NCBI GenBank assembly: GCA_032622095.1
Contig: CP136067.1
Location: forward strand, 196,876,052 to 196,940,051
Origin: Siphonodentalium dalli
Taxonomy: Eukaryota > Mollusca > Scaphopoda > Gadilida > Siphonodentaliidae
Length of the DNA stretch: 64,000 nucleotides
Direction: 5' to 3'
This document shows positions 12,117 through 63,813 of the stretch, piece after piece (position 1 is the first letter of the stretch; each line of letters starts with the position of its first letter). The notes under the pieces are model-generated. The model searched no databases. It worked only from the letters and a program-made list of their open reading frames with translations, and was not told where the DNA came from. A program made the position numbers and the translations under genes.

Positions 12117-12509
12117 CCATTTAGCCAACAAAACGGCCAAAACCGGCCAAATAAAGCTTCAAAAGCCTAAAATATCTTCGGTCTGTCTCAATAGAACCAT
12201 ACAAATATGGATATCATTGGAACCGGCTCCTTGACCACATTGTGATAGTTACAGTTATGCCCTGTGCCAATGCATTCTCTTATATATGCGAGTCGACCAT
12301 AGGTCGCCTCGCATATATAAGAGAATGCATTGGCCTAAAAAAAAATCTTTTTTAAACACTTTTTACCATTTTTTCTTACATTCTTTAACAATTTTATAAT
12401 TTTTAATGTGTTAAGCCAATGTATTCTCTTATATATGCGAGGCGACCTATGGTCGACTCGCATATATAAGAGAATGCATTAGCACAGGGTCCTTCTGTTG
12501 GGTAAAGGG
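12117..12509 (+). mobile_element. TTAA-flanked MITE (CCCTTTACCCAAC-type) with two hairpins
   Basis: The element lies between TTAA at 12113-12116 and TTAA at 12510-12513, with ends ccatttagccaacaaaa and tgttgggtaaaggg. A second copy lies inverted at 61881-62232. Flanking TTAA plus CCC...GGG ends is the classic piggyBac signature. Inside, two 67-bp near-palindromes (12267-12333 and 12416-12482) bracket an AT-rich spacer, each entered or left through CCCTGTGCC / GGCACAGGG. There is no transposase, so it is non-autonomous. Confidence 0.8.
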
Positions 12510-12718
12510 TTAAAGCTGGCCACAATATCTCTTAACACTGTGGCCCAATTTCAGGTGATTGCCCCCTGCTTGACTTGACCACATTGCATTTAAACATTTG
12601 TTTTCATTGGGTTGGAATATTTGTGACTGCTTGATTCTGCATCATAATATATGGGGTATGATGCTACATTATGCAACTAAAATCGAACTCAACATTATGA
12701 TACAAATGAAGCCTCCTC

Positions 12719-12884
12719 TGTAATGTCCTTTTTTTGAGTTTTGAGAACACCGGTAAGATATACCCGGGCATTACTATATGTACACCAGGGATATAATAAA
12801 TGATCGCCATTTAATACAGCCTGCTCTGTTTTCTATCCGTTCATAATCTACATTAATCTGGAGTTAATTATCATAAGATAGAAC
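12719..12884 (+). mobile_element. 5' LTR of Gypsy element, internally deleted
   Basis: It starts tgtaatgtcc and matches the start of the LTR at 21237 (tgagttttgagaacaccg, atacccgg, tgtacacc). It then jumps to match that LTR's end (gatcgccattta, tgcctgctctgttttctatcc, gagttaattatcataagatagaac). About 470 bp of the middle is missing. The following ttggcgacggaatgg is a primer-binding-region-like leader typical of Ty3/Gypsy elements. Confidence 0.85.
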
Positions 12885-12968
12885 CCTTAATTTGGCGACG
12901 GAATGGCTATGGCAATGTGATATCCCACGTTTACTTGCAGTGATGACGATGTAGCCAGATTCTGAAGA

Positions 12969-13138
12969 TGGGAAAAATGGTCAAAACGATTGACTGAAAA
13001 TGTATGCCTTGAACATCACAATGCTAAGCTATGGCGGAGATGCATTAAACGACGTATTTGACACTTTACCACCCGATAGCTTGATAGTTCAGACCCTATC
13101 GAGGGTCAACCAACAGCAGACTGTTTCACAAAGGAGGC
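12969..13138 (+). pseudogene. Gypsy gag fragment
   Basis: Two frames are needed. One reads WEKWSKRLTEN and the other ALNITMLSYGGDALNDVF followed by DTLPPD. This matches the capsid-region pattern seen in Gypsy Gag (a W..W/Y...F stretch, then a hydrophobic LLHYGG.E..DIF.TLP motif). The remainder of gag and all of its zinc knuckle are missing, the copy being cut by the hairpin at 13075-13210. It would have been the structural capsid protein of a virus-like particle. Confidence 0.6.
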
Positions 13139-13210
13139 GTCAATCGCCTCCTTTGTGAAACAGTCTGCTGTTGGTTGACCCTCGATCGGGTCTGGAACTA
13201 TCAAGCTATA
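13075..13210. repeat. 136-bp near-perfect palindrome
   Basis: Sequence from about 13075 (gatagcttgatagttcagacc) to 13139 is mirrored in reverse complement at 13145-13210, around a 5-base loop (tcaat). Only one or two mismatches are visible. It joins gag sequence to RT-thumb sequence, so it probably marks the deletion junction that removed most of the polyprotein, repaired by a snap-back inverted duplication. Confidence 0.9.
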
Positions 13211-13224
13211 ATTATATCAAGCCA

Positions 13225-13535
13225 TCACACAACATTTCAATTTCAGTACTAGATTTATTCCAATTTTGTTCTAATATCACCCCCCACTTCGTCAGCTTAC
13301 ATACAAAAATGTCAACTGGGGTGACAAGTAAGACAATGTTTTTGTTGAACTGAAGCATAAAGTTGCAAATGCAACAGTCCTATCGTATTTTGATATCAAT
13401 CAAGTTTCTCAACTTTTTGTGGATGCGTCTCCTGTTGGAGTTGCTGAGACACTTTTACAAGATGCAAGTAGCAAATAGCAAGTAGCATTCGGCAACAGAT
13501 CCCTCACTGCAGTCCAACAAAGATATTCATAGTTG

Positions 13536-13573
<38 letters not shown>

Positions 13574-13830
13574 CTGTAGTATGGGCACTTGAACATTTCC
13601 ATTTATATGTACATGGATCCTACATAGAAGTGTTTACTGACAATCTTCCACTCCTTGGATTATTTGGTAAGCCAAATTCAAAGCTTCCTGTTCGATTAGA
13701 CTGATGGTCATTACGTCTGCAAACTTACAATTTCAAACTTAAGTTTCATGAAGGAGTTGATAATCCTGCGGATTACTTGTCAAGGTATCCCAAACCCATA
13801 TGTTTACACAGAAGTTGAGCATCACGCAGA
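13225..13830 (+). pseudogene. Gypsy RT thumb and RNase H relic
   Basis: Translation in shifting frames gives STRFIPILF..ITPPLRQLTYKNV (end of RT), then VFVELKHKVANATVLSYFD and LFVDASPVGVAETLLQD (start of RNase H). It continues with FAVVWALEHFHLYVHGS and FTDNLPLLGLFGKP, ending NPADYLSRYP. These are the connection and RNase H signatures of Ty3/Gypsy polyproteins. The catalytic FVDAS and TDN aspartates remain, but the frame is broken by TAG at 13509, an (AG)n expansion and a TGA near 13701. The RT palm with its catalytic aspartates is absent. Confidence 0.8.
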
Positions 13831-13895
13831 AATTTATATTGATTTTTTAGTCAAAGACTCCATACCAAAAGCTATGAGCTTGAACTAAATAGCCG

Positions 13896-14605
13896 ATGAG
13901 ACCCTCTTTAGATCCCGTTCGTAAAGCCGTTATTGATAATTTGATTACCGGCAAATGTCACAAATCTGAAGCCGATGTGCGAGAGTTTGAAAATGTCAAA
14001 GATGAGTTATCTGTTTGTTATTATGCAAATAACATGATTTTGTTGAAGAATAGTCGCATTGTTTTTGCCGGCTACTCTCCATCAAAGCGCCATTGATATT
14101 GCTCATGAAGGGCACCAAGTAATCAATAAAACAAAAATGCTTCTCAGAGAGAATGTTTCGTTGGGTGGTATGAACACACTAGTAGAAGTTCAGATATCAA
14201 AATTTAATCTTGGTCAAGCAGTAGTTAACAACCCAGTCCGTGAACCAATTGGGATGACAACTGTTCCTGATCACCATGGCCGGAAATTAGTATTGATTTT
14301 GTTGGACCTTTCTTTACCTGACAGTAATTATCTTCTGGTAGTGAATAGATGATTATAGTAGATGATTATAGTAGATGATTATAGTAGATTTCCGGAAGTG
14401 GAGATCTGCGCGAGTTTTTCAGTTCGTGTAGCATCCCTGATGCTGTGCGCAGTGATAATGGGAGTCCATTTCAGAGTAGATAATTCAGTGAATTTGCCTC
14501 TGAAATTGGTGTCAAACAGCGCAAATGATCACCCTTATCGCCGGAGGCAAATGGAGAAGTAGAATCATTTATGAAACCTCTGAAGAAGGTATGCATCACA
14601 GCCCA
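13896..14605 (+). pseudogene. Gypsy integrase relic
   Basis: Frames at 13896-14096, 14059-14352 and 14362-14562 give DPVRKAVIDNL, then the zinc-binding region IAHEGHQVINKTKMLLREN with its histidines. Both zinc cysteines are lost: the expected K-C-N-L-C-Q reads KFNLGQ at 14200-14217. The core follows with VREPIGMTTVPD, LPDSNYLLVV and DDYSRFPEVE. A 15-bp direct triplication (tagtagatgattata) at 14345-14392 disrupts the core start. The enzyme would have inserted the cDNA. It is dead here. Confidence 0.8.
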
Positions 14606-14879
14606 GTTGGAGGATAAAAAATGGAAGCAAGAGCATGATGTATGCCTTCCTTAGAAATTACAGATCTACTCCCCATTGCTCAGCAGGTGTAGCACCGTCC
14701 GTTAAAGCAAAGTTGCCTCATACCCCAGTTAAATGTCCAAAGAAATGCAATATCAAGTCGAATGACAAAAATGCCAAAATGAAAAAAAAAACATAGCAGA
14801 ATAAAAACTTCCACAATTACAATTGGGTTGATAAAAATTTATATATATTTGTTTTAATTCCAGCCCCTATTTGATCCAG

Positions 14880-15126
14880 TTCCGTACAATGTGGTTAATA
14901 TAAAATGATCCATGGTTATTGCTAAACGTGGAAATGAGGTAAAGGCAAGAAATAGTTCATACTTCAAGTTGGTCAAATTCTTTGATAACTCTTTTACTAG
15001 TAAGCCTCAAGAGGATTCTGACGTTGATTTTGATTGGATATTAACCGAAGAACCTCACCCGCATCATGTGGATCTCAGATTGAAAACGATAATGGTTCCT
15101 CAAATGATTGTGGAAGATATCCAATA
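14880..15126 (+). pseudogene. Gypsy integrase C-terminal tail
   Basis: PYNVVNIK, a stop, then MVIAKRGNEVKARNSSYFKLVK matches the C-terminal beta-barrel tail of Gypsy integrases (pattern V..I.G.MV.A...G....RN.S.FK.V). It is followed by an acidic stretch, QEDSDVDFDW. The frame closes at a TAA (15125). Confidence 0.65.
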
Positions 15127-15252
15127 AGAGTTAGGAACAACCAGCTCACTTGTAAGATTATGTTGTTTGAATGTAATATGTGAGTTAAGTTTTATATCAT
15201 TATGTAATATATCAATGCATGTATGTCACTGTTCTATTTCGTTAGGTATTAA

Positions 15253-15721
15253 AGGTACTCAACCCGATAAAACTCCTCTCAATTACTATTTCAATGGCTT
15301 CGGGGGTCAAAAATATTTGATTCGAGTCGAGGAAGTCACCCATCAAAGCTCAGATTTGTTAGATATCGATTTTAGAAATCTATTATTTTTCATTATCGGG
15401 AATACTATCTGGCCCAGAACTCAGTCAAAATTGCGTTAAAATTACCACTTGATTTTAGAGTTATTCATCCTTGTCTGTTTGAATAGATTTGGAGTACACA
15501 TCCAGAGCAGATTACGGCAGTTATTAGTACTCATCTCGAGAACATAACAAATTTGAAAAATCAATATCTAATAACCCTGAGCTTTGTTTGATGGGTTCCT
15601 CGACTCGAATCAAATATTTTTTACCCCCAAAGCCAAAGAAATAGTATTATAGGACCCTCTGATCGGATTGTTGTTGTTGGAATCTGTTGAGATGGGGACC
15701 CTCTTTACGGGTTGAGTACCT
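15253..15721 (+). mobile_element. TTAA MITE (AGGTACTCAA family), copy 1
   Basis: It starts aggtactcaacccg and ends cgggttgagtacct, with TTAA on both sides (15249-15252, 15722-15725). The duplicate of this locus at 21221-21230 reads gtattaaggg with a single TTAA, i.e. the empty site. Longer imperfect inverted repeats continue inward (tttgattcgagtcgaggaa at 15317-15335 against ttcctcgactcgaatcaaa). It is non-autonomous; TTAA targeting points to a piggyBac-like mobiliser. Confidence 0.92.
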
Positions 15722-15734
15722 TTAAGGGGAGATA

Positions 15735-15920
15735 TGTAGTGTCCTGTTTATTGAGTTTTGAGAACACCGTTAAAATATACCCGGACAGTATTATATGTAC
15801 ACCGGAGAAAGAGTATTATCTGAGGTTACACGGGTGTAGATGTTTTCCATAGGCCTCAGTGCTAACGTTTTAGCGTATACTGTTGGCAATATAAATGTTG
15901 GGTCCAAAATTTTCTTTAGA
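15735..15920 (+). mobile_element. Gypsy 3' LTR, first 186 bp (cut by LINE)
   Basis: The sequence begins tgtagtgtcctgtttattgag directly after a purine-rich tract (aaggggagata). It is nearly identical to the LTR start at 21237. It stops where the LINE begins at 15921. Confidence 0.88.
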
Positions 15921-16049: not shown

Positions 16050-17466
16050 ATGTTGGAGAAGGACTCTGGGTCTTCAGAGGACGACTTCAATAATTTTGTG
16101 AAGTCAATCAATACCAAAATCAGTGAAATGTCCAAACAATTCGCGAAAAATGATTCACTCGACAAGAGATTATCTGCCATCAACAATAAATGTGTCAATT
16201 CCTCGGCAGTCACCAAACATTATGCCGACAATGTGCAAAAACAGATGTCCACAATGTTTGAACTACTAGCCCGAGATACTGTTACAAAATACAACTCACT
16301 CGTGACGTTCGTACAATCGTGTATGCAACAACACTCCTAACAGTCGGTAGACATGTTGTGGAAAGCACAAGACATCTCGAACTCCAGTGAGTCACTTATC
16401 AATTCCCAGACAAACACCAGTGCTAATGTTAGTAACCGTTCATTAGTAATCGAACGCAATTCACCGAACGAGGATCAGCAAGCGAGTCATGTAGATTCGC
16501 CGAAATTAGAGAATTTTCGCGAGACAAAACCATTGGACCACTCTTCTCCTATCAATTGGTCAAAAGACGGTAGTGCTCTTTAGAGAGAAATTCTCGCCAA
16601 ACACTCACACATAACGATCCAACTTGACCACAGTTTTGCACTTGCATCGACACCGACTCTAAACGATTCTGGTCCCATCCAACCAGTCGACAAGACTACT
16701 GTTCCAGCTAGTCTAAACACCACAACCCCAAATGTGCCCGCTATGTCAGTGTTGCCCGAAACTGTGAAGTCGACCTATACCGACAACATGAACATTATAG
16801 ACAACGTCAATAACTTTTCCGTAATTACCAATTCAGACAACCTGCATTCTTCGGCAAATGATCGATTCTCGCACGCAAATGGTCATCTGAACACAGATTC
16901 TTACGAGCGGTGTCCATACCCCACATTGAATGCGGAAAATTTCAATTCCGTAGACATAGCACACAACAAAAAGTGGTCACAATCTTCTAAGTGCGAGACA
17001 CATGTCTCGTCAAGTACGATCAGTGCAAGTAGTTCTCATAGATGTGATCCTCCTCGACAGCAAGGAAATGCGGGAAAAACAGTTGATGACGCTACAACTG
17101 AATTCAGCGGCTTACCTTCGCAACATGTGGATAGTGAAAGAGTTCCAATTGATTACTCCGTCGGTTTTACGGGAGTGCCTTTTAAAAGGACTCGAAGGAC
17201 CCGTAAAATCTACATTGGCAGGATCTCACCAGACGCAACAGAACGCAGTCTCTGGACGTTCTTCGGAAACGGGGATTTTTTCCACCTATATTTGCGTAGT
17301 CCCAAGTTCCAGAAGAGGAACACAGTCAGCGCGTGTAAATATATATGCAGATGACAACAAACTTCTTTGCCAGGATGGCTTTTGGCCCAGAAACATCATC
17401 GCGAGACCGTGGCGATCTGACCCACCAGCGCGCAACCATGATGGAAATATGGAAATACAGAACATG
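16050..17466 (+). pseudogene. LINE ORF1 (nucleic-acid-binding protein)
   Basis: Frame 3 runs from ATG 16050 with two in-frame stops (TAA 16338, TAG 16581), then stays open to 17354. Around 17290-17330 it must shift to frame 1 to finish. The N-terminus (about 95 residues, DFNNFVKSINTKISEMSKQ) is helical and coiled-coil-like. The middle is a long Ser/Asn/Thr-rich linker. The end has RKIYIGRISPDATERSLW and, after the shift, FWPRNIIARPWR, the pattern of an RNA-recognition-like fold seen at the end of ORF1 in some LINEs. ORF1 proteins coat the LINE RNA. Counting the stops, about 470 codons. Confidence 0.75.
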
Positions 17467-20400
17467 AAGCTTAGTGTTATGACATGGAATTGTACAGGAT
17501 TTGTGACTTCTCAGCTTTATCTCTGTAACATTTTGCAAACATTTAAGTATGATGTTATTGGAATATTGGCTCAACGAAGGAAATATACCGGCCCTCACGG
17601 ACATTCATTCTCTTTACACAGTTGTAGTAAAACCAGGAAGGACTATCACAACATGTAAAGACGCAACACTTACAAAGGGTGGCGTAGCCTTAATTGTTAA
17701 AAACGATATGCTCGGAAATGCATTGCGCTAGATATCCCCCACGACTGGTGTGTTGGAATCCAATTAATAATTTCGCCGTCAAAAACACTCAGTATCGTGC
17801 AAATGTATATGCCTAGTACTAATCACCGTGACGATGAATTCCTAAAACGTTTGGATTCTCTCATTGACCAGTACTATCTTCTGAAGCAGAATGGTCCTGT
17901 CATCCTCATGGGAGACTTCAATGTACACCTTTGAGACGCTCGTGGCGATAACATTCCAGTTGGACACAAATTACGACTCACAGCTATAGGAAGGTTTATA
18001 GAGAGCGTACGCATGTGGTCTACCTCTTGTTCCTCGCTGTGCTCCGGTCCGCGATTCACGTTCTTCCCGTATGTATCTGTGGCCAAACCTACTACAATTG
18101 ACCACATTCTTGTCCCGGAAGATATCGAATATTGCTTCATAGAGTGTGCTATTGTGGATGATGTTCCGACCAACGTGTCTAACCATTTGCCTGTGACATG
18201 TGTTTTTTCGATTGAAGTCAATCTAGACAACCAGACCCTCTGCTATAACAGAACAGTTTATAGATGGAAACAAGCGGATATTCCGTACTACCAGACAATT
18301 CTTACACACAAATGTTTGGAATTATCGACACTCCCGACTGCCGACAATACTGACATTGATTCTCTGTATGACAGGATCGTTTTATCACTTCTCGATGCTT
18401 CGGACTGTGCTGTTGGTGAACGCAAATTCTGCAAACACACGAAACCGTACTGGAATTCCGAATTGTCCATTCTACACCAGGGAATAAAAATAGCTCGCAA
18501 CTTGTGGATAGCTTCCGGCAGGCGGCACTCAACGCTTTCAGCGGAGTACGTTCCATATAGAGATGCAAAACGACGTTTTCGCAGAGCGCTGCGTATATCC
18601 GTTCGTAGTCATGAACAAAAATTTCTACATGCAAACGAGGACATTGCTAAATTTTGGAAGATGACTCAACATAAACCTCGCACGCAAACGGTCGCCCACG
18701 GCATGGTATTCGACGCAGGGGTCTGCCGAGACCCTGAAGAAATTCTATCGGGCTGGAGGAATTATTTTGAAAATCTGTACACACCCGGAATACACCATGA
18801 CGCTGACGTTGAACAAACTACCGACAACACTCTCAAATCGATCATTGACAGCTCTCACGAGTCATATTCTTCTACAATACTCTGTGAACATATTAACCTC
18901 TCTGAACTCGTTGCCTGTATAAAGACACTGAAGCGAAACAAAGCTACAGGAATGGATTCAATTGCTAACGAACATTTGTTGCTTGCTCCTGAATCGTTTC
19001 TATGTCGTTTCTGAATCGTTTCTATACAACTCAATTCTAGACCTAGAATGGATCCCAACGAAGAAGAAATCAGGAATCATCGTGCCTCTCTACAAAGGGG
19101 AACTAAAACCTAAGAATAAACCAGACAGTTACCGAGCCATAACACTTCTCTCAACCATCTACAAACTCTTCGAATCAGTGCTTCTAGCAAGATTTCTCAA
19201 AAACACTAAACTAGTACATTTTCCACACGCTTTACAATTTGGGTTTCAAAAGAACGTAGGTTGTAATATGACTTCTTTTGTTGTCCAAGAGACCATTACA
19301 TATGCACACGACAACGGATCGAAAGCCTGCGTTGGCTTCCTTGACTCGGCCAAAGCTTTTGATCGAGTGTGGCATAACGGGCTTCTCATAAAGCTATCGA
19401 TATTGGTTTCACAGGAAAAATTCTGCGGATCGTTCAAAACATGCACCATGATTGCACCAGCTATGTCTCTCACAATGGACAGTTATCAAATTCTCTGCAA
19501 ATTCGTCAAGGAACAAGGCAGGGGACTGTGACATCCCCTTTCTTTTACCTGGTATTCATCAATGAATTACTTATCAAATTGGAATAATCAAACCAGGGCT
19601 TACACATCGGCGGTGTAAACTGCACATCTCCTACAACTGCTGATGATATATGCGTCATATCTCTCCACAAGTCCGGACTCGATCGACTTCTGGATATATG
19701 TTACCACTACAGCACACAATGGCGTTTCCAGTTTTCCACTACTAAAAGTGCAGTTGTCGTCTTCAACGAATCTAAACGTCGACGTGAGGAACGACAGCGA
19801 GTGTTGTTTCTCGGAGACGAAGCTATCCATGAATCAACGAGCTGTCGTCATCTCGTAATTGAGCAAAGTAAATTCAAAGACAACACAAACCGAGCAGCAA
19901 ACGCTTCTAACGTTATGAGAACAACTTATTTCTCCATTTCTCCATCGCCGGCCCAGCCCAGTGACAATGTCTAATCTTCTCCAACGAATTGTTCTTCCAA
20001 AGGCTCTCTATGGCTCAGAACTTCTCTGCGACTCTCGTGACAACATTGTCCTTGTAATTGAGAGAGCGTTTCGAACTTGTGTAAAGCACATTCAAGGCCT
20101 ACCATCAAGAGCTAGCACCTGTCTTTCCCTCAGTGTCCTGGGCATTTTACCTATAAAGCATCAGATACACGTGCGGAAACTTCTCTTTTTCTGTGACCTT
20201 ATTCATCTTCCACCGTCACGCGATACTCCATCACGTATATTTCTCAATAAGTTCTTCCTTAACAATTTGTTTCACGTTGATACGTCTGGATTTGTCAGAG
20301 ACATTTGTGAAATTCTGAAGGAGTATAACCTCTCCTCATACATAGATAACTTTGTGCAGTCTGGATTCTTCCCACCTAAAATCGGTTGTGAGATCTGTGT

Positions 20401-20795
20401 ACCGCGAATCCTGGCAAACAACGGTACTATCAGACGATTGTCTCGCACCTTGCAGGGATGTGCATAACAACCCGTTGTCAGTTTGGTCTATCTGGCGGCT
20501 GCTTGCCGACAATGCTGACAAAAAGTACATTCTAAAACACCTCGTCAAGCTCCTGAACAGGACTCTCTACGACAACAACATGAACTGTGATATTTGTGGC
20601 CGTTGTTTCCAAAACGAAATTGAACACATCACCAACTCATGTAACTCAGATTCCGTGCTAAGGTTGCGTTATGTCTATTGGTGTGACATAATCAACCAGT
20701 TTGACCTACATGTGTTCGCCTTCTTGGACGGTCTAGAACTCCACAAACTTAACGCGATTCTTCTCGGCAACATTGGCACGTGTCTTCGACAATGA
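17467..20795 (+). pseudogene. LINE ORF2 (endonuclease-reverse transcriptase)
   Basis: ORF2 starts MKLSVMTWNCTGF and hops between frames 1, 2, 1, 2, 1, 2 and 3. Endonuclease signatures are MGDFNVH (17908-17928, followed at once by TGA), TTIDHILVP (18091 on) and SNHLPV (about 18178). RT signatures are LKRNKATGMDSI (about 18931), PDSYRAITLLS (19120), FLDSAKAFDRVWH (19336-19374), RQGTVTSPFFYLV (about 19516) and ADDI (19639). The residue before ADD is Thr (PTTADD) where Tyr or Phe is usual. The thumb has LPKALYGSELL, and a CDIC...H....C knuckle lies at 20586-20642. The protein would nick target DNA and prime reverse transcription; this copy cannot. Confidence 0.85.
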
Positions 20796-30911: not shown

Positions 30912-31050
30912 TGTGTTCCCCCGGCCCCCGCCTATGTGCCCCCCCGGCCCCCGCCTATGTGTCCCCCCGGCCCCCGCCTATGTGTCCCCCAGGCACCCGC
31001 CTATGTGTCCCCCCCGGCCCCCGCCTATGTGCCCCCCGGCCCCCGCCTTT
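30912..31050 (+). repeat. C-rich 24-bp minisatellite, ~6 copies
   Basis: The unit is roughly cggcccccgcctatgtgtccccc, with C-run length variation. It is strikingly GC-rich (over 75%) in AT-rich surroundings and strand-asymmetric, so G-quadruplex formation on the minus strand is plausible. Confidence 0.92.
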
Positions 31051-31071
31051 TATAATTTTTAATGTGTTAAG

Positions 31072-31138
31072 CCAATGCATTCTCTTATATATGCGAGGCG
31101 ACCTATGGTCGACTCGCATATATAAGAGAATGCATTGG
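31072..31138. repeat. 67-bp hairpin module, lone copy
   Basis: The near-perfect palindrome ccaatgcattctcttatata ... gcattgg, with centre cgacctatggtcg, is flanked right by cacagggccgttctgttggg and taaagggttaa, the right end of the 12117-type MITE. The left half of that MITE is missing, its place taken by the C-rich minisatellite. Confidence 0.9.
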
Positions 31139-31434
31139 CACAGGGCCGTTCTGTTGGGTAAAGGGTTAAAGACAATCAGTCATGACTATATATATCACCC
31201 CTAACGACATGCATGTATATTATATTATATTTATTTGTGTTTGCACTTTCCATGTGTGTATATTGTAAATAAAATTATCCAATGGTATCCTGCCTTATCC
31301 TGATAAAACCCATGAATGGACAATCTGGCACCGACAGGCATGAATCATGAAATGCGAGATCAAATGTACCCAGACATCACAGGTGACTATTATCCATTTC
31401 ATGACGGGAGCTGCGCTGGCACAACATTTAAGAC

Positions 31435-31990
31435 CCTATGCTAATGCATGCATTATCATATATATATATACATGCTGGCTTATCCCTTTGATGACTGGAG
31501 CTGACTGGTTTTTGCGAAAACCTCTGCCATGCCTATGTATTCTCTTATATATGCGAGTCGCCCATAGGGGGTCACACATATATAAGAGAATGCATTGGCT
31601 TAACAATATTTACTGTGCACTGACACAGGGTCTTTAATGATGCACCAGCGCAGCTCCCACCATGAGAGGGTTAAATGGCTCGCATTGGCCTAACAATATT
31701 TACCTTGACCTGTAAGCCAACGGGAGACTCGTTTATATAAGAGAATACATTGGTACGAGGTCTTTAATGCTGCACCAGCACAGCTCCCGCCATGAGAAGG
31801 TTTAATGGCTCGCGTACGCGTTGGCCTAACAATATTTACCTCGACATGTAAGCCAATGGGCGACTCGTTTATATAAGAGAATGCACTGGTACAGGGTCTT
31901 TAATGCTACACCAGCGGAGCTCCCATCATGAGAGGGTTAAATAGCTCGCGTTGGCCTAACAATATTTACTTTGACCGTTTGGGCGCAAAC
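31435..31990 (+). repeat. Degenerate tandem of hairpin-module fragments
   Basis: A variant hairpin lies at 31532-31598. Units then follow about every 115-150 bp (gcattggcttaacaatatttac, gcattggcctaacaatatttac, gcgttggcctaacaatattt), each carrying cagggtctttaatg.tgcaccagcg.agctccc, (c/t)atgagagggttaaa and cgactcgtttatataagaga. This is the hairpin sequence degenerating inside an unrelated tandem repeat. Confidence 0.8.
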
Positions 31991-32005
31991 AGCCATATGA
32001 CTTTA

Positions 32006-32175
32006 ACCGTTTCCATACTAAAGCACCATTGATGAGTAGTTGTCCCATAGGAAATGTTCATATAAAAAGTTTAACCCTTTCTATACTATTGCACCATTGA
32101 TGAGTAGATATCCCATGGGAAATGTTCAGATAATAAGTTCAACAAACGACAATTTGTTGAACTTATTATCTAAAC
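32006..32175 (-). repeat. Two inverted copies of the 68-bp unit
   Basis: tttccatactaaagcaccattgatgagtagttgtcccataggaaatgtt and a second, diverged copy are reverse complements of the 68-bp unit arrayed at 38001-38380. A short palindrome (ttattatctgaaca/ ... ttgttgaacttattatct, 32121-32171) ends the block. Confidence 0.8.
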
Positions 32176-38000: not shown

Positions 38001-38380
38001 AACTACTCATCAATGATGCGTTAGTATAGAAAGGGTTAAACTTATTATCTGAACATTTCCTATGGGACAACTACTCATCAATGATGCGTTAGTATAGAAA
38101 GGGTTAAACTTATTATCTGAACATTTCCTATGGGACAACTACTCATCAATGATGCTTTAGTATAGAAAGGGTTAAACTTATTATCTGAACATTTCCTATG
38201 GGACAACTACTCATCAATGATGCTTTAGTATAGAAAGGGTTAAACTTATTATCTGAACATTTCCTATGGGACAACTACTCATCAATGATGCGTTAGTATA
38301 GAAAGGGTTAAACTTATTATCTGAACATTTCCTATGGGACAACTACTCAACAATCATGCGTTAGTATAGAAAGGGTTAAA
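38001..38380 (+). repeat. 68-bp tandem repeat, 5.6 copies
   Basis: Units start at 38001, 38069, 38137, 38205, 38273 and 38341 with aactactcatcaatgatgcg and include tagaaagggttaaacttatt. They are nearly identical, so expansion is recent. Related single copies lie at 32006-32175 and 41086-41160. Confidence 0.95.
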
Positions 38381-38507: not shown

Positions 38508-39357
38508 ATTAGGGCCACCCAAAGCGACAAAATGTGCGCCATTAGTCGAGCGCCGCAAGCGCCAGAATCGATAAAATATGTGCCATTCTGTCGCACATGT
38601 TGCGGCTTGTGCCGTTTTGCGGGCACTAAAACATGAGATAATGTCGCATGTTTTGGTTCGCCGAAAGCGACAAGATTCTGTGCGCACCAAAAACAGATTA
38701 ATGTCGCACATTTGTGACCCGCCATATCAAATCCAGTCGTAAGTCAGGATTTTTTTTTTACCCTGTGCCAATGCATTCTGTTGTATATGCGAGTCGACCC
38801 ATAGGTCGCCTCGCATATATAAGAGAATGCATTGGCCTAACAATTTTTTACAATTTTAATAATTTTTTCTTGTATTCTTTAACAATTTTATAATTTCACC
38901 CATACAGAGCCCCAGACAAACATGAGCAGACGACACTCTTCTATATGCTTCTATATATGTGTGGGGCTCCCTGCAGGGTAATGGATGTTTTTTATTTTAT
39001 GTCCTAAAAATTGTAAGAAACATTTATTTAAAAAAATGATAAAAAATTGTTAGGCCAATGCATTCTCTTATATATGCGAGGCGACACTCGCATATATAAG
39101 AGAATGCATTGGCACAGGGTAAAAAATCCCGACTTACGACTGGATTTGATATGGCGGGTCACATTTTGTCGCTTCTGTCGCGCAACAAAACAGATTAATG
39201 TCGCATGTTTTGGCGCCGGCCTCAAGCGAAAAACCATGCGATATTATGTCGCACATTTTGTCGCTTCTCTCGCTTTCGGCGCGCGACTAAAGGCGCATAT
39301 TTTGTCGTTTTTGTCGCTTTCGGTGCGCTCCAGAAGCGTCATTAGGAAGTGGGCCTA
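38508..39357. mobile_element. Foldback element with GTCGCACATT motifs, host of a nested MITE
   Basis: Ends are ttagggccacccaaagcgac and, inverted, ttaggcccacttcc (right end near 39357). Both flanks of the inner MITE are filled with variants of gtcgcacattttgtcgcttt and its complement (aatgtgcgac, aaagcgacaaa). This yields inverted halves at 38515-38709 and 39167-39340. It is non-coding. Confidence 0.7.
38714..39162. mobile_element. GTGACCCGC double-hairpin MITE, copy 1
   Basis: Terminal inverted repeats begin gtgacccgccatatcaaatc and run about 50 bp into CCCTGTGCC and the 67-bp hairpins (38768-38835; 39055-39112, the latter with a shortened loop). The flanking direct repeat ATTT occurs at 38710-38713 and 39163-39166. 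Copy 2 at 63357-63813 has AATT on both sides. A 4-bp A/T target duplication is therefore likely. The centre has AT-rich spacer and a cacccatacagagccccaga block. Confidence 0.85.
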
Positions 39358-41269: not shown

Positions 41270-44200
41270 ATGACGTCATTTCTCCATGCTATGATGTCGT
41301 TTCTTCATTGTATGATGTTATTTCTCCATTATATAATGTAGATTCGACATGATATGATGTCCTTTCTTCATTGTATGATGTTATTTATCCATTATATTAT
41401 GTAGATTCGACATGATATGATGTCGTTTCTTCATTGTATGATGTTATTTCTCCATTATATTATGTAGATTCGACATGATATGATACCCTTTCTTCATTGT
41501 ATGATGTTAATTCTCCATTATATTATGTAGATTCGACGTGATATGATACCCTTTCTTCGTTGTATGATGTTATTTATCCATTATATTATGTAGATTCGAC
41601 ATGATATGATACCCTTTCTTCGTTGTATGATGTTATTTATCCATTATATTATGTAGATTCGACATGATATGATGTCCTTTCTTCATTGTATGATGTTATT
41701 TATCCATTATATTATGTAGATTCGACATGATATGATGTCGTTTCTTCCTTGTATGATGTTATTTCTCCATTATATAATGTAGATTCGACATGATATGATG
41801 TCCTTTCTTCATTGTATGATGTTATTTATCCATTATATTATGTAGATTCGACATGATATGATACCCTTTCTTCATTGTATGATGTAATTTCTCCATTATA
41901 TTATGTAGATTCGACATGATATGATACCCTTTCTTCATTGTATGATGTTATTTCTCCATTATATTATGTAGATTCGACGTGATATGATACCCTTTCTTCG
42001 TTGTATGATGTTATTTATCCATTATATTATGTAGATTCGACATTATTTGATACCCTTTCTTCGTTGTATGATGTTATTTATCCATTATATTATGTAGATT
42101 CGACATGATATGATGTCCTTTCTTCATTGTATGATGTTATTTATCCATTATATTATGTAGATTCGACATGATATGATGTCGTTTCTTCATTGTATGATGT
42201 TATTTCTCCATTATATTATGTCGATTCGACATGATATGATGTCCTTTCTTCATTGTATGATGTTATTTCTCCATTATATTATGTCGATTCGACATGATAT
42301 GATACCCTTTCTTCATTGTATGATGTTATTTCTCCATTATATTATGTAGATTCGACATGATATGATACCCTTTCTTCGTTGTATGATGTTATTTATCCAT
42401 TATATTATGTAGATTCGACATGATATGATGTCCTTTCTTCATTGTATGATGTTATTTATCCATTATATTATGTAGATTCGACATGATATGATGTCGTTTC
42501 TTCATTGTATGATGTTATTTCTCCATTATATTATGTCGATTCGACATGATATGATGTCCTTTCTTCATTGTATGATGTTATTTCTCCATTATATTATGTC
42601 GATTCGACATGATATGATACCCTTTCTTCATTGTATGATGTTATTTATCCATTATATTATGTAGATTCGACATGATATGATACCCTTTCTTCATTGTATG
42701 ATGTTATTTATCCATTATATTATGTCGATTCGACATGATATGATACCCTTTCTTCATTGTATGATGTTATTTATACATTATATTATGTCGATTCGACATG
42801 ATATGATACCCTTTCTTCATTGTATGATGTTATTTCTCCATTATATTATGTAGATTCGACATGATATGATGATGTCGTTTCTTCATTGTATGATGTTATT
42901 TATCCATTATATTATGTAGATTCGACATGATATGATGTCGTTTCTTCATTGTATGATGTTATTTCTCCATTATATTATGTCGATTCGACATGATATGATA
43001 CCCTTTCTTCATTGTATGATGTTATTTATCCATTATATTATGTCGATTCGACATGATATGATACCCTTTCTTCATTGTATGATGTTATTTCTCCATTATA
43101 TTATGTAGATTCGACATGATATGATACCCTTTCTTCATTGTATGATGGTATTTCTCCATTATATTATGTCGATTCGACATGATATGATGTCCTTTCTTCA
43201 TTATATGATGTTATTTCTCCATTATATTATGTCGATTCGACATGATATGATACCCTTTCTTCATTGTATGATGTTATTTCTCCATTATATTATGTAGATT
43301 CGACATGATATGATACCCTTTCTTCATTGTATGATGTTATTTCTCCATTATATTATGTAGATTCGACATGATATGATACCCTTTCTTCATTGTATGATGT
43401 TATTTATCCATTATATTATGTCGATTCGACATGATATGATACCCTTTCTTCATTGTATGATGTTATTTCTCCATTATATTATGTCGATTCGACATGATAT
43501 GATACCCTTTCTTCATTGTATGATGGTATTTCTCCATTATATTATGTCGATTCGACATGATATGATGTCCTTTCTTCATTATATGATGTTATTTCTCCAT
43601 TATATTATGTCGATTCGACATGATATGATACCCTTTCTTCATTGTATGATGTTATTTCTCCATTATATTATGTCGATTCGACATGATATGATGTCGTTTC
43701 TTCATTGTATGATGTTATTTCTCCATTATATTATGTCGATTCGACATGATATGATGTCGTTTCTTCATTGTATGATGTTATTTCTCCATTATATTATGTC
43801 GATTCGACATGATATGATACCCTTTCTTCATTGTATGATGTTATTTCTCCATTATATTATGTCGATTCGACATGATATGATACCCTTTCTTCATTGTATG
43901 ATGTTATTTATCCATTATATTATGTCGATTCGACATGATATGATACCCTTTCTTCATTGTATGATGTTATTTATCCATTATATTATGTCGATTCGACATG
44001 ATATGATACCCTTTCTTCATTGTATGATGTGAGTTATCCATTATATTATGTCGATTCGACATGATATGATGATGTCGTTTCTTCATTGTATGATGTAATT
44101 TCTCCATTATATTATGTCGATTCGACGTGATATGATACCCTTTCTTCATTATATGATGTTATTTATCCATTATATTATGTCGATTCGACATGATATGATA

Positions 44201-46140
44201 CCCTTTCTTCATTGTATGATGTTATTTATCCATTATATTATGTCGATTCGACATGATATGATACTCTTTCTTCATTGTATGATGTTATTTCTCCATTATA
44301 TTATGTCGATTCGACATGATATGATACCCTTTCTTCATTGTATGATGTTATTTATCCATTATATTATGTCGATTCGACATGATATGATACCCTTTCTTCA
44401 TTGTATGATGTTATTTATCCATTATATTATGTCGATTCGACATGATATGATACCCTTTCTTCATTGTATGATGTTATTTATCCATTATATTATGTCGATT
44501 CGACATGATATGATACCCTTTCTTCATTGTATGATGTTATTTCTCCATTATAGTATGTCGATTCGACATGATATTATGTCGTTTCTTCATTGTATGGTGT
44601 TATTTCTCCATTATAGTATGTCGATTCGACATGATATGATACCCTTTCTTCATTGTATGATGTTATTTCTCCATTATATTATGTCGATTCGACATGATAT
44701 GATGTCGTTTCTTCATTGTATGATGTGAGTTATCCATTATATTATGTCGATTCGACATGATATGATACCCTTTCTTCATTGTATGATGTTATTTCTCCGT
44801 TATATTATGTCCTTTCGACATGACATGATGTCGTTTCTTCATTGTATGATGTTATTTCTCCATTATATTATTTCGATTCGACATGATATGATACCCTTTC
44901 TTCATTGTATGATGTTATTTATCCATTATATTATGTCGATTCGACATGATATGATACCCTTTCTTCATTGTATGATGTTATTTCTCCGTTATATTATGTC
45001 CTTTCGACATGACATGATGTCGTTTCTTCATTGTATGATGTTATTTCTCCATTATATTATTTCGATTCGACATGATATGATACCCTTTCTTCATTGTATG
45101 ATGTTATTTCTCCATTATATTATGTCGATTCGACATGATATGATACCCTTTCTTCATTGTATGATGTTATTTCTCCATTATATTATGTCGATTCGACATG
45201 ATATGATGTCGTTTCTTCATTGTATGATGTTATTTCTCCATTATATTATGTCGATTCGACATGATATGATACCCTTTCTTCATTGTATGATGTTATTTCT
45301 CCATTATATTATGTCGATTCGACATGATATGATGTCGTTTCTTCATTGTATGATGTGAGTTATCCATTATATTATGTCGATTCGACATGATATGATGTCC
45401 TTTCTTCATTGTATGATGTTATTTCTCCATTATATTATGTCGATTCGACATGATATGATGTCGTTTCTTCATTGTATGATGTTATTTATCCATTATATTA
45501 TGTCGATTCGACATGATATGATGTCGTTCCTTCGTTGTATGATGTGATTTATCCATTATATTATGTGGATTCGACATGATATGATGTCGTTCCTTCGTTG
45601 TATGATGTTATTTCTCCATTATATTATGTAAATTCGACATGATATGATGTCCTTTCTTCATTGTATGATGTTATTTCTCCATTATATTATGTCGATTCGA
45701 CATGATATGATGTCCTTTCTTCATTGTATGATGTTATTTCTCCATTATATTATGTCGATTCGACATGATATGATACCCTTTCTTCATTGTATGATGTTAT
45801 TTATCCATTATATTATGTAGATTCGACATGATATGATACCCTTTCTTCATTGTATGATGTTATTTATCCATTATATTATGTCGATTCGACATGATATGAT
45901 ACCCTTTCTTCATTGTATGATGTTATTTATCCATTATATTATGTAGATTCGACATGATATGATACCCTTTCTTCATTGTATGATGTAATTTCTCCATTAT
46001 ATTATGTCGATTCGACATGATATGATACCCTTTCTTCATTGTATGATGTTATTTATCCATTATATTATGTAGATTCGACATGATATGATGTCCTTTCTTC
46101 ATTGTTTGATGTGATTTATCCATTATATTATGTGCTTTCG
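41270..46140 (+). repeat. 63-bp satellite (three 21-bp monomers), ~77 copies
   Basis: The unit is tgtatgatgttatttctccat, tatattatgtcgattcgacat, gatatgatgtcgtttcttcat. The three 21-mers are visibly homologous. Variants include gataccc for gatgtcg, ttatcc for ttctcc, and tgtaga (mainly in the left part) for tgtcga (right part). The array runs about 4.9 kb. As 63 is divisible by 3, open frames of repeating MIPFLHCMMLFLHYIMSIRHD appear; they are not genes. Confidence 0.97.
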
Positions 46141-46444: not shown

Positions 46445-46830
46445 GATGACATCCGATATTTTTCTTTAACAATTTTATCATTGTTTTCTTACATTCTTTA
46501 ACAGTTTTATCTTTTTTAAAATCAATTTTTCTTACATTATTTAACAATTTTTATCATTTTTTCTTACATACTATAACAAATTTTATAAATTTTTTCTTAT
46601 AATCTTTAACAATTTTATCATTTTTTCTTACATTCTTTAAAAAATAAAATTTGCTAATTTTTGTTATATCAATTTTTCTTACATTCTTTATCAATTTTTA
46701 TTAATTTTTCTTCCAGCATTCTTTAAAAATGTTATCATTTTGTTATCATTATTTCTTACACTCTTTAACAAATTTTGATTTTTGTTTTCATTTTTCTTAC
46801 ATTTTTTTACAATTATAAAAAATAATATAA
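46445..46830 (+). repeat. AT-rich ~35-bp degenerate tandem repeat
   Basis: Loose copies of tttttcttacattctttaac + aattttatca recur about ten times. The same words form the spacer between hairpins at 12360-12405 and 38855-38895, so this is an expanded version of the hairpin-module spacer. Confidence 0.85.
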
Positions 46831-46841
46831 AATTTGTTAGG

Positions 46842-46908
46842 CCAATGCATTCTCTTATATATGCGAGGCGACCTATGGTCGACTCGCATATATAAGAGAA
46901 TGCATTGG
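46842..46908. repeat. 67-bp hairpin module, lone copy
   Basis: This is the same near-palindrome as at 12267 and 31072, preceded by ttgttagg and followed by cacagggttttcaca. Its left partner is missing. The 46445-46830 spacer expansion occupies its inner side. Confidence 0.9.
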
Positions 46909-47183
46909 CACAGGGTTTTCACAAACAATCAGGAAGCTGTCGTCATGAAAGGGTTAATCATGTCGACATCGCAGTATCATAATGGGACAAGGACTGGCTG
47001 TCAATGTCAATGTTTCCCACCATGACGAACAGAACATCAACAGAGTTTGCTCGAACACAAATCTACGAGGAGCTACTCTATCGATTGTGATTGCACTCTA
47101 AGAGCCAGACGCGAGAATCCAAACATATCTCGTTGGTGGAACTCATCTAGACCGGGAGCTGTTATGGTACCCACATGACTTAA

Positions 47184-56380: not shown

Positions 56381-56399
56381 CACCCGTGACCCAAATGTG

Positions 56400-59633: not shown

Positions 59634-60720
59634 TCCAGTTAAGGAGGAGGTCAAGTAAAACATTTTGAATGGAGATTTCCATGCAAATCTCTGCAGCAAA
59701 TGTTATATATGAAGCAGTTGTCTGGGAACTACAGTAATGCCCTAACAAAATTGACTCCTTAACCACAGCAGAACAAGAGGTGTACACTCGAGTGCTAGCA
59801 TACCCCCACCGTGGCAAATTCAACACGCATTATCCGTAAACCAAACAAAAAAGATTTTTAACTTTAAAGAAAAATTCGGACTAATTATATCGATATGGTG
59901 TCACAAGAAGCTTGTACAGAAAAAATTATTCAAATTGGTTCATATTTGTTAAAGTTATTGAGTCGGACAGAATTTTCTAAGTCAAAATAAGTTTAATATT
60001 ACGAAAAACAGTCTGAGCCAATCCCTAGCCGCATCATGTAGAGAGGGTATTGTGAGAAGCATGTATACCAAAAATTATTGAAATCGGTTCATATTTGTTA
60101 AAGTTATTAAGTCGGACAGAATTTTCTAAGTCAAAATAGTCGAAAATGAGGCGTAACTTTAAAAAAAAAAAAGTCGGACCAAACTGCAATTAGCATCATG
60201 CGGAGAGGCGGTCCTAAGGAGATTGCATACAAAAAATTATTGAAATCGGTTCATAGTTGTTCGAGTTATGAGGTCGGACGGACGGACGGAGGGAGAAAGT
60301 GTGACGGACGGACGGACAGACGCAGTCAATCCAGTATACCCCCCATTTTCTTCGAAAGTGGGGGTATAATTATGGGTAATGGGTTAAGGAGTCGATTATT
60401 TAGGGAATTACTGTAAAGCAGCCATATCATTTAACAGACAGGGTGGGCTTGTTAAATTGCCAATTTTTGCTATAAATTTATTTTTGAGAATTACAATACT
60501 TGACCTAGTTTTGAAAAATCAATATAAAATTCAAATATAAATAGATCAACTTTCTAATGGAAAAAACCCAAACCAACCCACCAGGTAAATATGAATTGTT
60601 TTCAATACCGCACCAAGTCACACCCAGATATATTTGCAACTCTGTAACTTTTGCTGTGGAGAATTGCATGGAAATTCCCATTCAAAATTTGTCACTTGAC
60701 CTCTCCTTAACAAATTTGTG
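59634..60720. repeat. Inverted repeat enclosing a mariner-like MITE
   Basis: ttaaggaggaggtcaagtaa ... catgcaaatctctgcagcaa (59638-59702) is mirrored at 60640-60716 (ttttgctgtggagaattgca ... cttgacctctccttaa). The arms are about 80 bp and diverged. Confidence 0.65.
59732..60413. mobile_element. TA-flanked mariner-like MITE
   Basis: Ends are cagtaatgccctaacaaaat + tgactccttaacc and, inverted, cagtaattccctaaataatc + gactccttaacc, each next to TA (59730-59731, 60414-60415). The interior has three ~120-bp repeats (attattgaaatcggttcatatttgttaaagttat, gtcggacagaattttctaa), a (GGAC)n tract at 60281-60325, and a gaaagtgggggtata hairpin at 60338-60366. No transposase. Confidence 0.75.
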
Positions 60721-60843
60721 CATTTGAAACAGAAAAAGTCATATTCATAACATTGGACTATTTTATATTCTAGTGGGTTTATATAAAGATGGTCTCTCTC
60801 CAAGTCTGAACTTAGTGTGTCTGATATTTGCAGAATGAGACCA

Positions 60844-60908
60844 CCAGAGGGTGAATATAGTGATGCCACCCAGCATAGCGGGCTAGCATCACCATATTCA
60901 CCCTCTGG
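60844..60908. repeat. Hairpin, ~23-bp arms
   Basis: ccagagggtgaatatagtga + tgc pairs with gcatcaccatattcaccctc + tgg around an 18-base loop. Further gtgaata copies follow at 60939 and 60970. Confidence 0.8.
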
Positions 60909-61218
60909 GGAACTACCTGGACTATATATAAACCCAGTTGGTGAATACGAGCCCTGGACTATATTCTGGTGAATATGACTATAAAGTGTACAGCATTCAT
61001 TGTGAAAATATAAAACCAGAAAATAACAAAAAAACTATAATAAAAAAAAGACCTGTATTTCAAGTAGATAGCTTTAGTTACCCGACTTCAGTGAAACACA
61101 ATGAGATCCTGCTCTGATCAGAAGGGCCAGGAAACGAGGCCTAGGATAGGTACTACATTATAACTAAGAATCTAAGTTCCATATGTCATCCAGTTACAAT
61201 GAATACTCCTGACAACTA

Positions 61219-61432
61219 CCAGCAATGCTCTAATTAATCAACCTCTTAACCACAGCATAATTATGGGTAACTTTTCAGGATTTAGTCGGAAATATGGCTT
61301 GTTGCCATTCATCGGAAAGCTCTCGGGGAGAGCTTTCCAATGAATGGCAACAAGCCATATTTCCGACTAAATCCTGAAAAGTTACCCATAATTCTGCTGT
61401 GGTTAAGAGGTCGATTAATTAGAGCATTACTG
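61219..61432. mobile_element. Near-perfect 214-bp palindromic MITE, TA-flanked
   Basis: Two arms of about 105 bp meet at a 3-base loop (61325-61327). Arms contain aatgctctaattaatc.acctcttaaccacagca and tcaggatttagtcggaaata. Ends resemble those of the element at 59732-60413 (cagtaatgc.ctaa, TTAACC), so it is a smaller relative. TA lies at both ends. Confidence 0.88.
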
Positions 61433-61434
61433 TA

Positions 61435-61880
61435 CCAGCACATTGAACAGCTTAATCACAATTGTGAACAAATCCATTTTTACTCGGAAAAGATTATATG
61501 ATTATTTGCATCAATGCACATGCTTGACAGTACATGTAAGTACTAGAATGATGTATTGTTTCTAATTAAATTAGCTCTAAACACTACCGCACATGCTCAG
61601 ATAGGAGTTTGCAGAACAATTTCATTATTCTCAACAAATTTTCTTGTCACTTATTATCACATATTCACCAAACCCGAAGTCTATGAAATACCATATATGT
61701 ATATAATTATGGCGCTTAACAAATTAGTCAAAACAATGATAGTATAATCACACGTGGTTTCATCAACAGAGAATGGTTACTATTAAATGAAAGTGTCAAT
61801 GACACTGTAGCTCAACTTGGGTGAGTCGTTTATTTTGATGCTGAGCAGTCAATAGAATAATAAAGAAGAAGGAAAGTTAA
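61435..61880. other. No recognisable feature
   Basis: This AT-rich stretch has one 63-codon plus frame (61556-61747) without recognised motifs. Confidence 0.4.
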
Positions 61881-62232
61881 CCCTTTACCCAACAGAAGGG
61901 CCCTGTGCCAATGCATTCTCTTATATATGCGAGTCGACCATAGGTCGCCTCGCATATATAAGAGAATGCATTGGCTTAACACATTAATAATTAATTAATA
62001 ATTAATTAATAAAAATTTTTTTAGGCCAATGCATTCTCTTATATATGCGAGGCGACCTATGGTCGACTCGCATATATAAGAGAATGCATTGGCACAGGGC
62101 ATAACTGTAACCATCACAATGTGGTCAATGAGCCGGTTCCAATGATATCCATATGTGTATGGTTTTATTGAGACAGACCGAAGATATTTTAGGCTGTTGA
62201 AGCTTTATTTGGCCGGTTTGTTGGGTAAAGGG
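61881..62232 (-). mobile_element. TTAA-flanked MITE (CCCTTTACCCAAC-type), copy 2
   Basis: Inverted relative to 12117-12509. TTAA lies at 61877-61880 and 62233-62236, with ends ccctttacccaacagaaggg and tgttgggtaaaggg. Hairpins lie at 61908-61974 and 62026-62092 around a shorter TTAATTAA-rich spacer. The side block accgaagatattttaggc, gaagctttatttggccggtt matches copy 1. Confidence 0.85.
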
Positions 62233-62279
62233 TTAAAGGGCTTCAGTAAAGGGCTTGTATTTTGTAGATGACATTATTT

Positions 62280-62960
62280 TCATTTCACTAATGCGGGCTG
62301 CAGGGTGTGCCAATGGATTCACATGTCAAATCCAAGGTGGCTGCTACATTATTTAGCAAATTTTAGAAAAATTGGATAGCTCCCATCTAAGAGATCACCC
62401 CAAAGAATTATATGAAGTTTGATGATGATCAGATGAGGGATGTGGCATGCAGGGTGTGCCGAATGATGATTTGGTCATGAAAAGAGTAAAATCCAAGATG
62501 GCCAAGATGGCCATGTTTTTCAATGAAATTCGGAAAATTTTGATAGCTCCATCAAGTGGTCACCCAGAAGATACATATGAAGTTTGGTAATGATCATATG
62601 AAGGATGTGGTCTGTAAGGTGTGCTAAAGGATTTAGTCACGCAATGAGTAAAATCAACAAAGGATGCCGGCAGCCATGTTATTTAACAAAATTTGGAAAA
62701 ATGTGATAGCTCCCATCTAGAGGTGATCGTAGACTTGCCTGTAAATTAAAAAAATATTGTTCCGATAAGTGCGGGTGACATGGTGCGCAAAAGGATTCAA
62801 ATTTGAAATCCAAGATGGCTGCTGGCAGCCATGTTTTTAAAAAAATTTCAGAAAAAAATCGATGGCTCCCATCTAAAGAGGTCACCCAAGATCCATATGA
62901 AGTTTGCTGATGATTGGATGAGGGATGTGGCCTGTAGGGTGTACAAAATGAATTTGTTGA
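62280..62960 (+). repeat. ~165-bp degenerate tandem repeat, four units
   Basis: Units start near 62300, 62449, 62613 and 62780. Each has g(c/t)a.ggtgtgc..a.ggat, aaatccaagatggc(c/t)gc, gatagctcccatctaagagg.tcaccc and tatgaagttt(g/t).tgatgat. The C/G-poor consensus is non-coding; the minus frame 62679-63092 is a by-product. Confidence 0.85.
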
Positions 62961-63352
62961 TGGACGCATGCCAAGACAGATGCCAACCCATGGCAATAGC
63001 TCCAACTTGACTTTGTCAAATTGAGCTAAAACCTCATAAAGATGAGTTAAAAGTGAGTTAGTCAGAATGGTTAGCAATTTGGCACATAACATGGTGCATT
63101 CAAGAGGAATTAAGTCTATAATTGTTCAATATTCATAAAAGAAGGAAGCATCTACCCAACGCAATTTTTTGCGTCTTGCGTCTTCCAAGCATTTCAGAAT
63201 ATAATTCACATGAGTATAAAACATAAGAGACATACTGAAAAACAGAGTTCTGTCCCCTCGCTACCATGGTCTGGCCACTTTCATCATGTACAGTACATAA
63301 ATTGTCACAATGTAAGAATTTCTGACAATTTTTATATTGAATTATTTTTGTC
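62961..63352. other. No recognisable feature
   Basis: Short frames only, nothing recognised on either strand. Confidence 0.4.
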
Positions 63353-63356
63353 AATT

Positions 63357-63813
63357 GTGACCCGCATATCAAATCCAGTCGGAAGTCGGGATTTTTTTTA
63401 CCCTGTGCCAATGCATTCTCTTATATATGCGAGTCGACCATAGGTCGCCTCGCATATATAATAGAATGCATTGGCCTAACAATTTTTTACAATTTTAATA
63501 ATTTTTTCTTGTATTCTTTAACAATTTTATAATTTCACCCATACAGAGCCCCAGACAAACACGAGCAGACTGCACTCTTCTAGGTGCTTCTATATATGTG
63601 TGGGGCTCCCTGCAGGGTAATGGATGTTTTTTTATTTTATGTCCTAAAAATTGTAAGAAACATTTATTTAAAAAACATGATAAAAAATTGTTAGGCCAAT
63701 GCATTCTCTTATATATGCGAGGCGACCTATGGTCGACTCGCATATATAAGAGGATGCATTGGCACAGGGTAAAAAAATCCCGACTTCCGACTGAATTTGA
63801 TATGGCGGGTCAC
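63357..63813. mobile_element. GTGACCCGC double-hairpin MITE, copy 2
   Basis: Flanked by AATT (63353-63356, 63814-63817). Terminal repeats are gtgacccgcatatcaaatcc and its complement. Hairpins lie at 63408-63474 and 63696-63762, with the same central spacer (cacccatacagagccccaga ... gggtaatggatg) as copy 1 at 38714-39162 at about 95% identity by eye. Confidence 0.88.

Follow-up and report, generated by a model that had tools for sequence, protein, structure and literature searches.

A hairpin-ended DNA module shared by four families of small transposons in Siphonodentalium dalli

The window analysed here is a 64,000-nucleotide stretch of the scaphopod Siphonodentalium dalli (contig CP136067.1; G000:C7:196876052-196940051) in a genome of 2,226,750,531 bases and 9 contigs. 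It carries repeated copies of a 67-bp near-perfect hairpin whose natural unit is not the free hairpin but a module, here called M, with ~80-bp terminal repeats in which the hairpin forms the repeat body. M was found inside four otherwise unrelated host elements, A, B, C and D. We put at about one in two the probability that M is a non-autonomous, transposon-like module, possibly TA-targeting, that entered several families of miniature inverted-repeat transposable elements (MITEs) a few times and was amplified by the transposases of its hosts. M would then be non-coding DNA bounded by inverted repeats of ~80 bp, each made of CCCTGTG and the hairpin, and would have acted a few times as a discrete unit, probably inserting into TA sites of A/T-rich DNA. 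It would have landed in, or already belonged to, small non-autonomous transposons with other ends. These hosts (A, B and D of TTAA type, C with a 4-bp duplication) would have multiplied by means of their own transposases, carrying M to ~140,000 exact ends. In this reading three points are inferred: that M itself transposed, that it targets TA, and which transposases were at work.

Build, boundary and copy number of the module

The hairpin arm matched the window at 24 places with up to 3 mismatches, compared to a mean of 0.04 and a maximum of 1 in shuffled sequence. All 11 hairpins that a sequence-only reading of the window had placed were present at their positions, and the outer contexts claimed for them were borne out. 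From outside to inside, an intact half consists of CCCTGTG, the hairpin CCAATGCATTCTCTTATATATGCGAG-T-CGACC-ATA-GGTCG-C-CTCGCATATATAAGAGAATGCATTGG, and CCTAA or CTTAA, so that CCCTGTG lies outside the hairpin and GGCCTAA or GGCTTAA inside it. Paired hairpins are inverted copies of each other, and M reads CCCTGTG-hairpin-spacer-hairpin-CACAGGG, two inverted halves flanking an AT-rich spacer. As DNA, the hairpin strand folds at -36.3 kcal/mol (z -14.6), a strength that follows from the palindrome; an Rfam scan of the window at gathering scores gave no match.

The boundary of the module is common to all contexts read, with CCCTGTG starting at a constant point beside the unrelated flanks of hosts A, B, C and D and of the few host-less copies seen. 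Both ends could be read in two host-less copies, L014 and L068; a third, L055, has an altered second flank, and L041/L051 and L048 are cut off on one side. The halves are also fixed in orientation: among 107 rows, all 60 intact centres have the T of the central mismatch outermost. The 107-row set, used also for consensus sequences, leaves out L001, L002, L005, L006, L007, L009 and L041, the repeated loci L010, L063, L066, L082, L083, L084, L096 and L099, and 'other' rows bearing none of the four named flanks. One end of L049 has the other centre orientation by its build, and lies outside the 60 since its centre is mutated.

Genome-wide, the exact 20-base arm occurs in 314,110 copies (157,048 + 157,062), compared to 0 copies of a reversed-arm control. 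CCCTGTG followed by the arm occurs 139,583 times (69,944 + 69,639), and the same string preceded by TA 20,403 + 20,481 times. The window holds 16 exact arms, compared to ~9 expected from the genome mean. Counts of absence refer to exact patterns, common words being skipped by the pattern search. A bare mobile hairpin was considered and dropped: the collapsed single-hairpin form, in which an inner-type arm adjoins CACAGGG, amounts to 1,000 exact copies, compared to 139,583 M ends, and in the one copy read (L049), inside host A, two hairpins have merged into one with A flanks on either side. In G000:C1, at ~735-926 kb, the hairpins are regularly spaced, at 14.56 kb and later at 5.0 + 6.2 kb, a pattern of large tandem units containing the module.

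To sample the genome we read 200 kb, as 20 stretches of 10 kb over the nine contigs; this and the window form the unbiased sample. Further stretches were read near listed matches, all from the low end of contig C1, and most of the other sequence examined was picked because it bears M. Among the 27 M end matches in the unbiased sample, 9 were in B, 6 in C, 4 in A1, 3 in A2, 1 in D and 4 elsewhere; of these four, two are the ends of the L014 copy, which has no host, one comes from a degraded B-like end and one is a false match to an inner arm. With 23 of 27 ends inside A-D, the hosts rather than M produced most copies. The sequence-only reading had proposed that the hairpin may be its own mobile module with CCCTGTGCC ends. 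The constant boundary at CCCTGTG agrees with this proposal and the placement of most ends inside hosts does not. We conclude that movement of M as a unit was confined to a few occasions, most copies being the work of the hosts.

The four hosts and their copies in the window

Hosts A, B and D begin TTAACCCTTT, and host C begins GTGACCCGCC. Host A reads TTAACCCTTTACCCAACAGAA(G/C)GG, M, CATAACTG..., and host D reads TTAACCCTTTGAGTGCCAGGTCCGATTTTTGTATCAACCCATATA followed by half of M; both are asymmetric around M. Host B reads TTAACCCTTTCATGACTGGAGCTTCCTGAAATTTTGCGAAAA with M on one side, and its opposite end is related to this one but not the same; L031, read by eye only, carries both B end types. 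Host C reads GTGACCCGCCATATCAAATCCAGTCGTAAGTCGGGATTTTTTTTA and M, identical on both sides, with outer arms of ~45 bp. When short typed end strings were compared, the outer ends were unlike in 14 of 15 pairings, as judged against chance, the exception being the two B ends.

The hosts also differ in their target duplications. TTAA was present at both ends in 9/9 rows of host A and 14/18 rows of host D, which include some repeated loci, and in 0/4 rows of host B, all from one degraded array in the window; this count leaves out L001, L002, L005, L006, L007, L009 and L041 (overlaps, other records) and L063. Host C showed a perfect 4-bp duplication in 10/13 two-ended copies, or 8/11 when L058/L082 and L079/L099 are each counted once; L064 was scored as a miss because of one extra base in its end, its flanks being attt/attt. 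Hosts A, C and D, mostly 190-480 bp in length, are MITEs in that they are short and have terminal inverted repeats and a constant target duplication. Since some hosts use TTAA and others 4-bp duplications, one common transposase is not expected, and the suggestion that the hairpin is a shared transposase site found no support.

Divergence separates the hosts by age. Over the 107 rows of all families, B hairpins lie at a mean distance of 19.5% from the B consensus, compared to 3.8% (A1), 7.6% (A2), 4.4% (C) and 4.8% (D) from their own consensus. The hairpin is thus old in B, the oldest carrier, and recent in A, C and D. The A1, A2, C and D consensus hairpins agree over their full length, and the B consensus differs at the centre (TCTCCCATAGGGAGC); B copies with the young centre also occur (46842, L034).

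Two window copies of host A have full M and TTAA at both ends. The first, with TTAA...CCCTTTACCCAAC ends, lies at 12113..12513 on the minus strand (M 12260-12489; hairpins 12267-12333 and 12416-12482), and the second at 61877..62236 on the plus strand (M 61901-62099; hairpins 61908-61974 and 62026-62092). A truncated host A at 31048..31169, minus strand, retains half of M, with a hairpin at 31072-31138 and an A outer end running to TTAA at 31169; its left side is cut at a 23-bp tandem repeat. Host C is represented by two copies, neither assigned a strand: 38714..39162 (GTGACCCGCC...GGGTCAC, duplication ATTT; M 38761-39119; hairpins 38768-38835 and 39055-39112) and 63357..63813 (duplication AATT; M 63401-63769; hairpins 63408-63474 and 63696-63762). 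The hairpin at 39055, described earlier as having a short loop, is present and has lost its palindrome centre. A small repeat, CCCATACAGAGCCCCA...TGGGGCTCCCTGCAGGG, is nested in the host C spacer and elsewhere (window 63538-63617, L051, L100:526-604).

The hairpin at 31532, rightly called degraded, belongs to an old host B copy at 31480..31674, plus strand, with one hairpin (31532-31598), CACAGGG at 31624-31630, TTAT on the left and TTAA on the right. Beside it, also on the plus strand, a 136-bp tandem array of host B ends (31618..31969) contains two more half-hairpins, at 31734-31753 and 31870-31889. The hairpin at 46842, taken before to stand alone, proved to be half of a host B element at 46842..46957 on the minus strand: the hairpin (46842-46908) is followed by CACAGGG to 46915 and by the B outer end, TTAACCCTTTCATGACG..., which reaches TTAA at 46957. 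An AT-rich spacer extends leftward (~46460-46841), where the second hairpin is absent. A 63-bp minisatellite of ~77 copies (41285-46133) lies near this hairpin.

Alignment of the window copies qualifies the claim of a near-constant hairpin amid diverging spacers and outer ends: this is true between families and scarcely inside them. For the A pair, identity is 132/134 positions in the hairpins, 153/161 in the outer parts and 49/51 in the spacer, which has a further 31 gap columns; the corresponding values for the C pair are 121/125 (plus 10 gap columns), 83/87 and 214/219.

Several other repeats were noted in the window. Tandem units of 68 bp with a TTAACCCTTTC end, at 38001-38380 and 32002-32143, form arrays perhaps derived from another TTAA element. 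Near-perfect palindromes of 213 bp (61220-61432) and 134 bp (13076-13209) are without the hairpin module, and the host A copy of L004 apparently lies within a relative of the 213-bp one. An inverted repeat at 465-6462, with 2.7-kb arms 92% alike around a 21/42-bp minisatellite, resembles a large foldback element, and a broken non-LTR-like retrotransposon with a reverse transcriptase match occupies 16584-20795.

Origin of the module and its spread

If M moved as a unit, the bases flanking its boundary may record a target. TA stands directly before CCC at 24/24 ends in host C, where both sides of M have it, and 24/24 in host D, on one side of L055, and on the present side of L041/L051 and of L048 (L001, L002, L005, L006, L007, L009 and L041, as overlaps or other records, are left out of this count). 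The sequence-only reading had asked whether CCCTGTGCC...GGCACAGGG modules occur with their own target duplication; TA is found on both sides of two host-less copies, L014:6947-7306 and L068 (paralogue L096), which is weak evidence because both lie within T-run/A-run flanks. Entry into hosts A and C before their spread is suggested by the lack of empty copies under exact patterns. Exact patterns for the M-free host C palindrome and the M-free host A junction each gave 0 copies genome-wide, compared to 16,643 C/M junctions (8,322 + 8,321), although diverged empty hosts could escape such patterns. In the sequence examined, host ends lacking the hairpin numbered 0/33 for C, 0/24 for A-far, 0/11 for B-L, 2/27 for A-right, 2/15 for A-mid, 3/62 for D-left, 2/34 for D-in and 1/10 for B-R, and most of them look like weak or degraded matches. 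Since no M-free A or C was found with these patterns, the A and C founders probably acquired M before spreading. For the TTAA hosts, piggyBac-type enzymes are candidates: CCC after TTAA, a trait of the piggyBac superfamily, is seen in hosts A and D, and the genome has at least 128 matches to the piggyBac-type DDE_Tnp_1_7 domain, many in long open frames. At 10 sampled DDE_Tnp_1_7 loci, the A, B and D ends were absent within 900 bp of the domain; two of these loci have no TTAA at all in the stretch read and must have their ends elsewhere.

A number of observations weigh against M as a mobile, TA-targeting unit. TA precedes CCC in 0/15 A1 ends, 0/16 B ends and 4/13 A2 ends, and common descent may account for the TA in C, in D and in the T-run copies. 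Free TA insertions in mixed sequence should appear under the pattern G/C-TA + CCCTGTG, but this has only 469 exact copies genome-wide, and the four listed copies that could be traced are C ends with a mutated T-run. L055 is without TA on one side. TTAA could be a target of M as well, because the flanks read at 14 of the 327 TTAA + CCCTGTG places in the genome comprised 7 C, 2 B, 1 A and 4 outside hosts, one of these last lying 10 bases from a B end; among the 100 places listed, no facing pairs within 600 bp were seen by eye. In host C, M lies exactly between equal outer arms, which is not what chance insertion predicts, and a real D end without M occurs at L033:945, near the end of the stretch. 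No transposase with M ends was found in a search that covered piggyBac-type transposases only.

The symmetry of host C bears on a different account, in which M is an exchange platform rather than a transposon: replication stalled at the hairpins would switch template and join M to the end of another transposon, and copying across the palindrome would put the new end on both sides, giving a new MITE family served by another transposase. We consider this possible but on the unlikely side. The equal ~45-bp arms around M in host C, which has no M-free form with the exact pattern, are what it would produce, and fork stalling with template switching at foldback repeats is proposed in PMC8277862. Several copies (39055, L025, L004) have partly lost their hairpin centres. 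L098 is a mosaic of an A flank, M, a C outer end, an inverted A flank and an A terminus, and L070, a C element, has an inner repeat of A type; together with L049, they show M to be a possible site of exchange. However, the account predicts scattered breakpoints, yet the boundary stays at CCCTGTG in the classes read, and A and D are asymmetric around M. The exact L098 junction occurs once in the genome, and both L098 and L070 can be rare accidents; a derivation of A as a trimmed C-in-A nest, suggested by L098, was dropped because of this uniqueness. Whether M makes new MITE families in this way, its palindromic halves copying any adjoining transposon end to the other side, is more doubtful still. 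If true, one interior would have been refitted with new ends and passed between transposases, first of TTAA type and then of 4-bp type, and host switching would be explained without horizontal transfer or independent mobility.

It is improbable that B is the full ancestral element and that A, C and D are its deletions or recombinants. B is the oldest carrier, A, B and D share their first bases, and the GGCTTA/GGCCTA difference at the inner end is common to A and B. Set against this, the outer ends of A, C and D align to B no better than chance, and C has a different terminus and a different duplication. The outer ends are thus not in general recombinants of one element, an origin the sequence-only reading had named as its refutation, although single recombinants exist in L098 and L070.

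Slightly less probable again is that selection has maintained the hairpin, either as the precursor of a small RNA or as a site that all hosts use to bind a transposase. The ~31-bp arms fold strongly, and Made1, a similar palindrome, gave rise to human mir-548 (PMC1784062). However, within families the conservation of the hairpin does not clearly exceed that of the remaining sequence, so that strong selection need not be invoked; old B copies show unrestrained decay, and the few mutated window copies show, by eye, no compensating change in the opposite arm. Terminal palindromes at both ends of M recall the hairpin-replicating ends of parvovirus-like or telomere-like elements, but ends copied by hairpin transfer should show the asymmetric centre in either orientation at about equal frequency, and the fixed orientation (60/60), with 1,000 opposite arrangements against 139,583 M ends and the one copy read (L049) being two collapsed hairpins, makes it very unlikely. 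A transposon-like module carried by its hosts is the reading we prefer.

Comparison with known systems

MITE families are usually explained singly, each by deletion within one autonomous parent. In the present case a single interior is common to at least four families, which have two kinds of target duplication between them, and has reached some 140,000 exact ends. M thus offers a natural test of transposase change by non-autonomous elements, and a rich source of long hairpins in one genome, of interest for recombination, assembly gaps and possible small RNAs. Outside this genome, three patterns searched in viral contigs gave 0 matches, and two exact 20-base matches in contigs of other genomes (a thaumarchaeal bin and Halocatena) were taken as chance, since BLAST gave only 22-30-base matches there. 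Five motif strings had no occurrence in the papers searched, and the searches made for nested, composite and chimeric MITEs and related terms gave no interior with transposon-like ends shared by several host families of different target duplication. Nested MITEs of rice and maize, in which MITEs are inserted into MITEs, represent ordinary nesting, whereas here the nested pair itself became a high-copy family.

Taken singly, several features of the system are already known from the papers cited below: cargo multiplied by a MITE burst, composite ends, palindromic MITEs that yield microRNAs, and rearranging foldback repeats. MER6, a MITE that carries a SINE V domain and has the variant MER6A (PMC6887750), resembles M in holding a foreign conserved sequence multiplied by a burst of the host transposon. 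MER6/MER6A hold one cargo, whereas M is found in four hosts with at least two kinds of duplication, and its own ends are transposon-like. AgaP2-P12MITE of Anopheles gambiae (PMC1562414) is likewise a composite MITE with ends of different source; both of its ends are from the P family, whereas the outer ends of the M hosts are of different transposon types around a common interior. Made1 (PMC1784062) is a near-perfect palindrome of similar size (80 bp, with 37-bp arms) that stands alone as a whole element, whereas the hairpin of M makes up only one end of a module that contains two. Tetris foldback elements (PMC4079207) share with M long structured terminal repeats, rearranged forms and derived tandem arrays. 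They are built of tandem 220-bp units and make 8-10-bp duplications, whereas the terminal repeats of M hold an internal palindrome.

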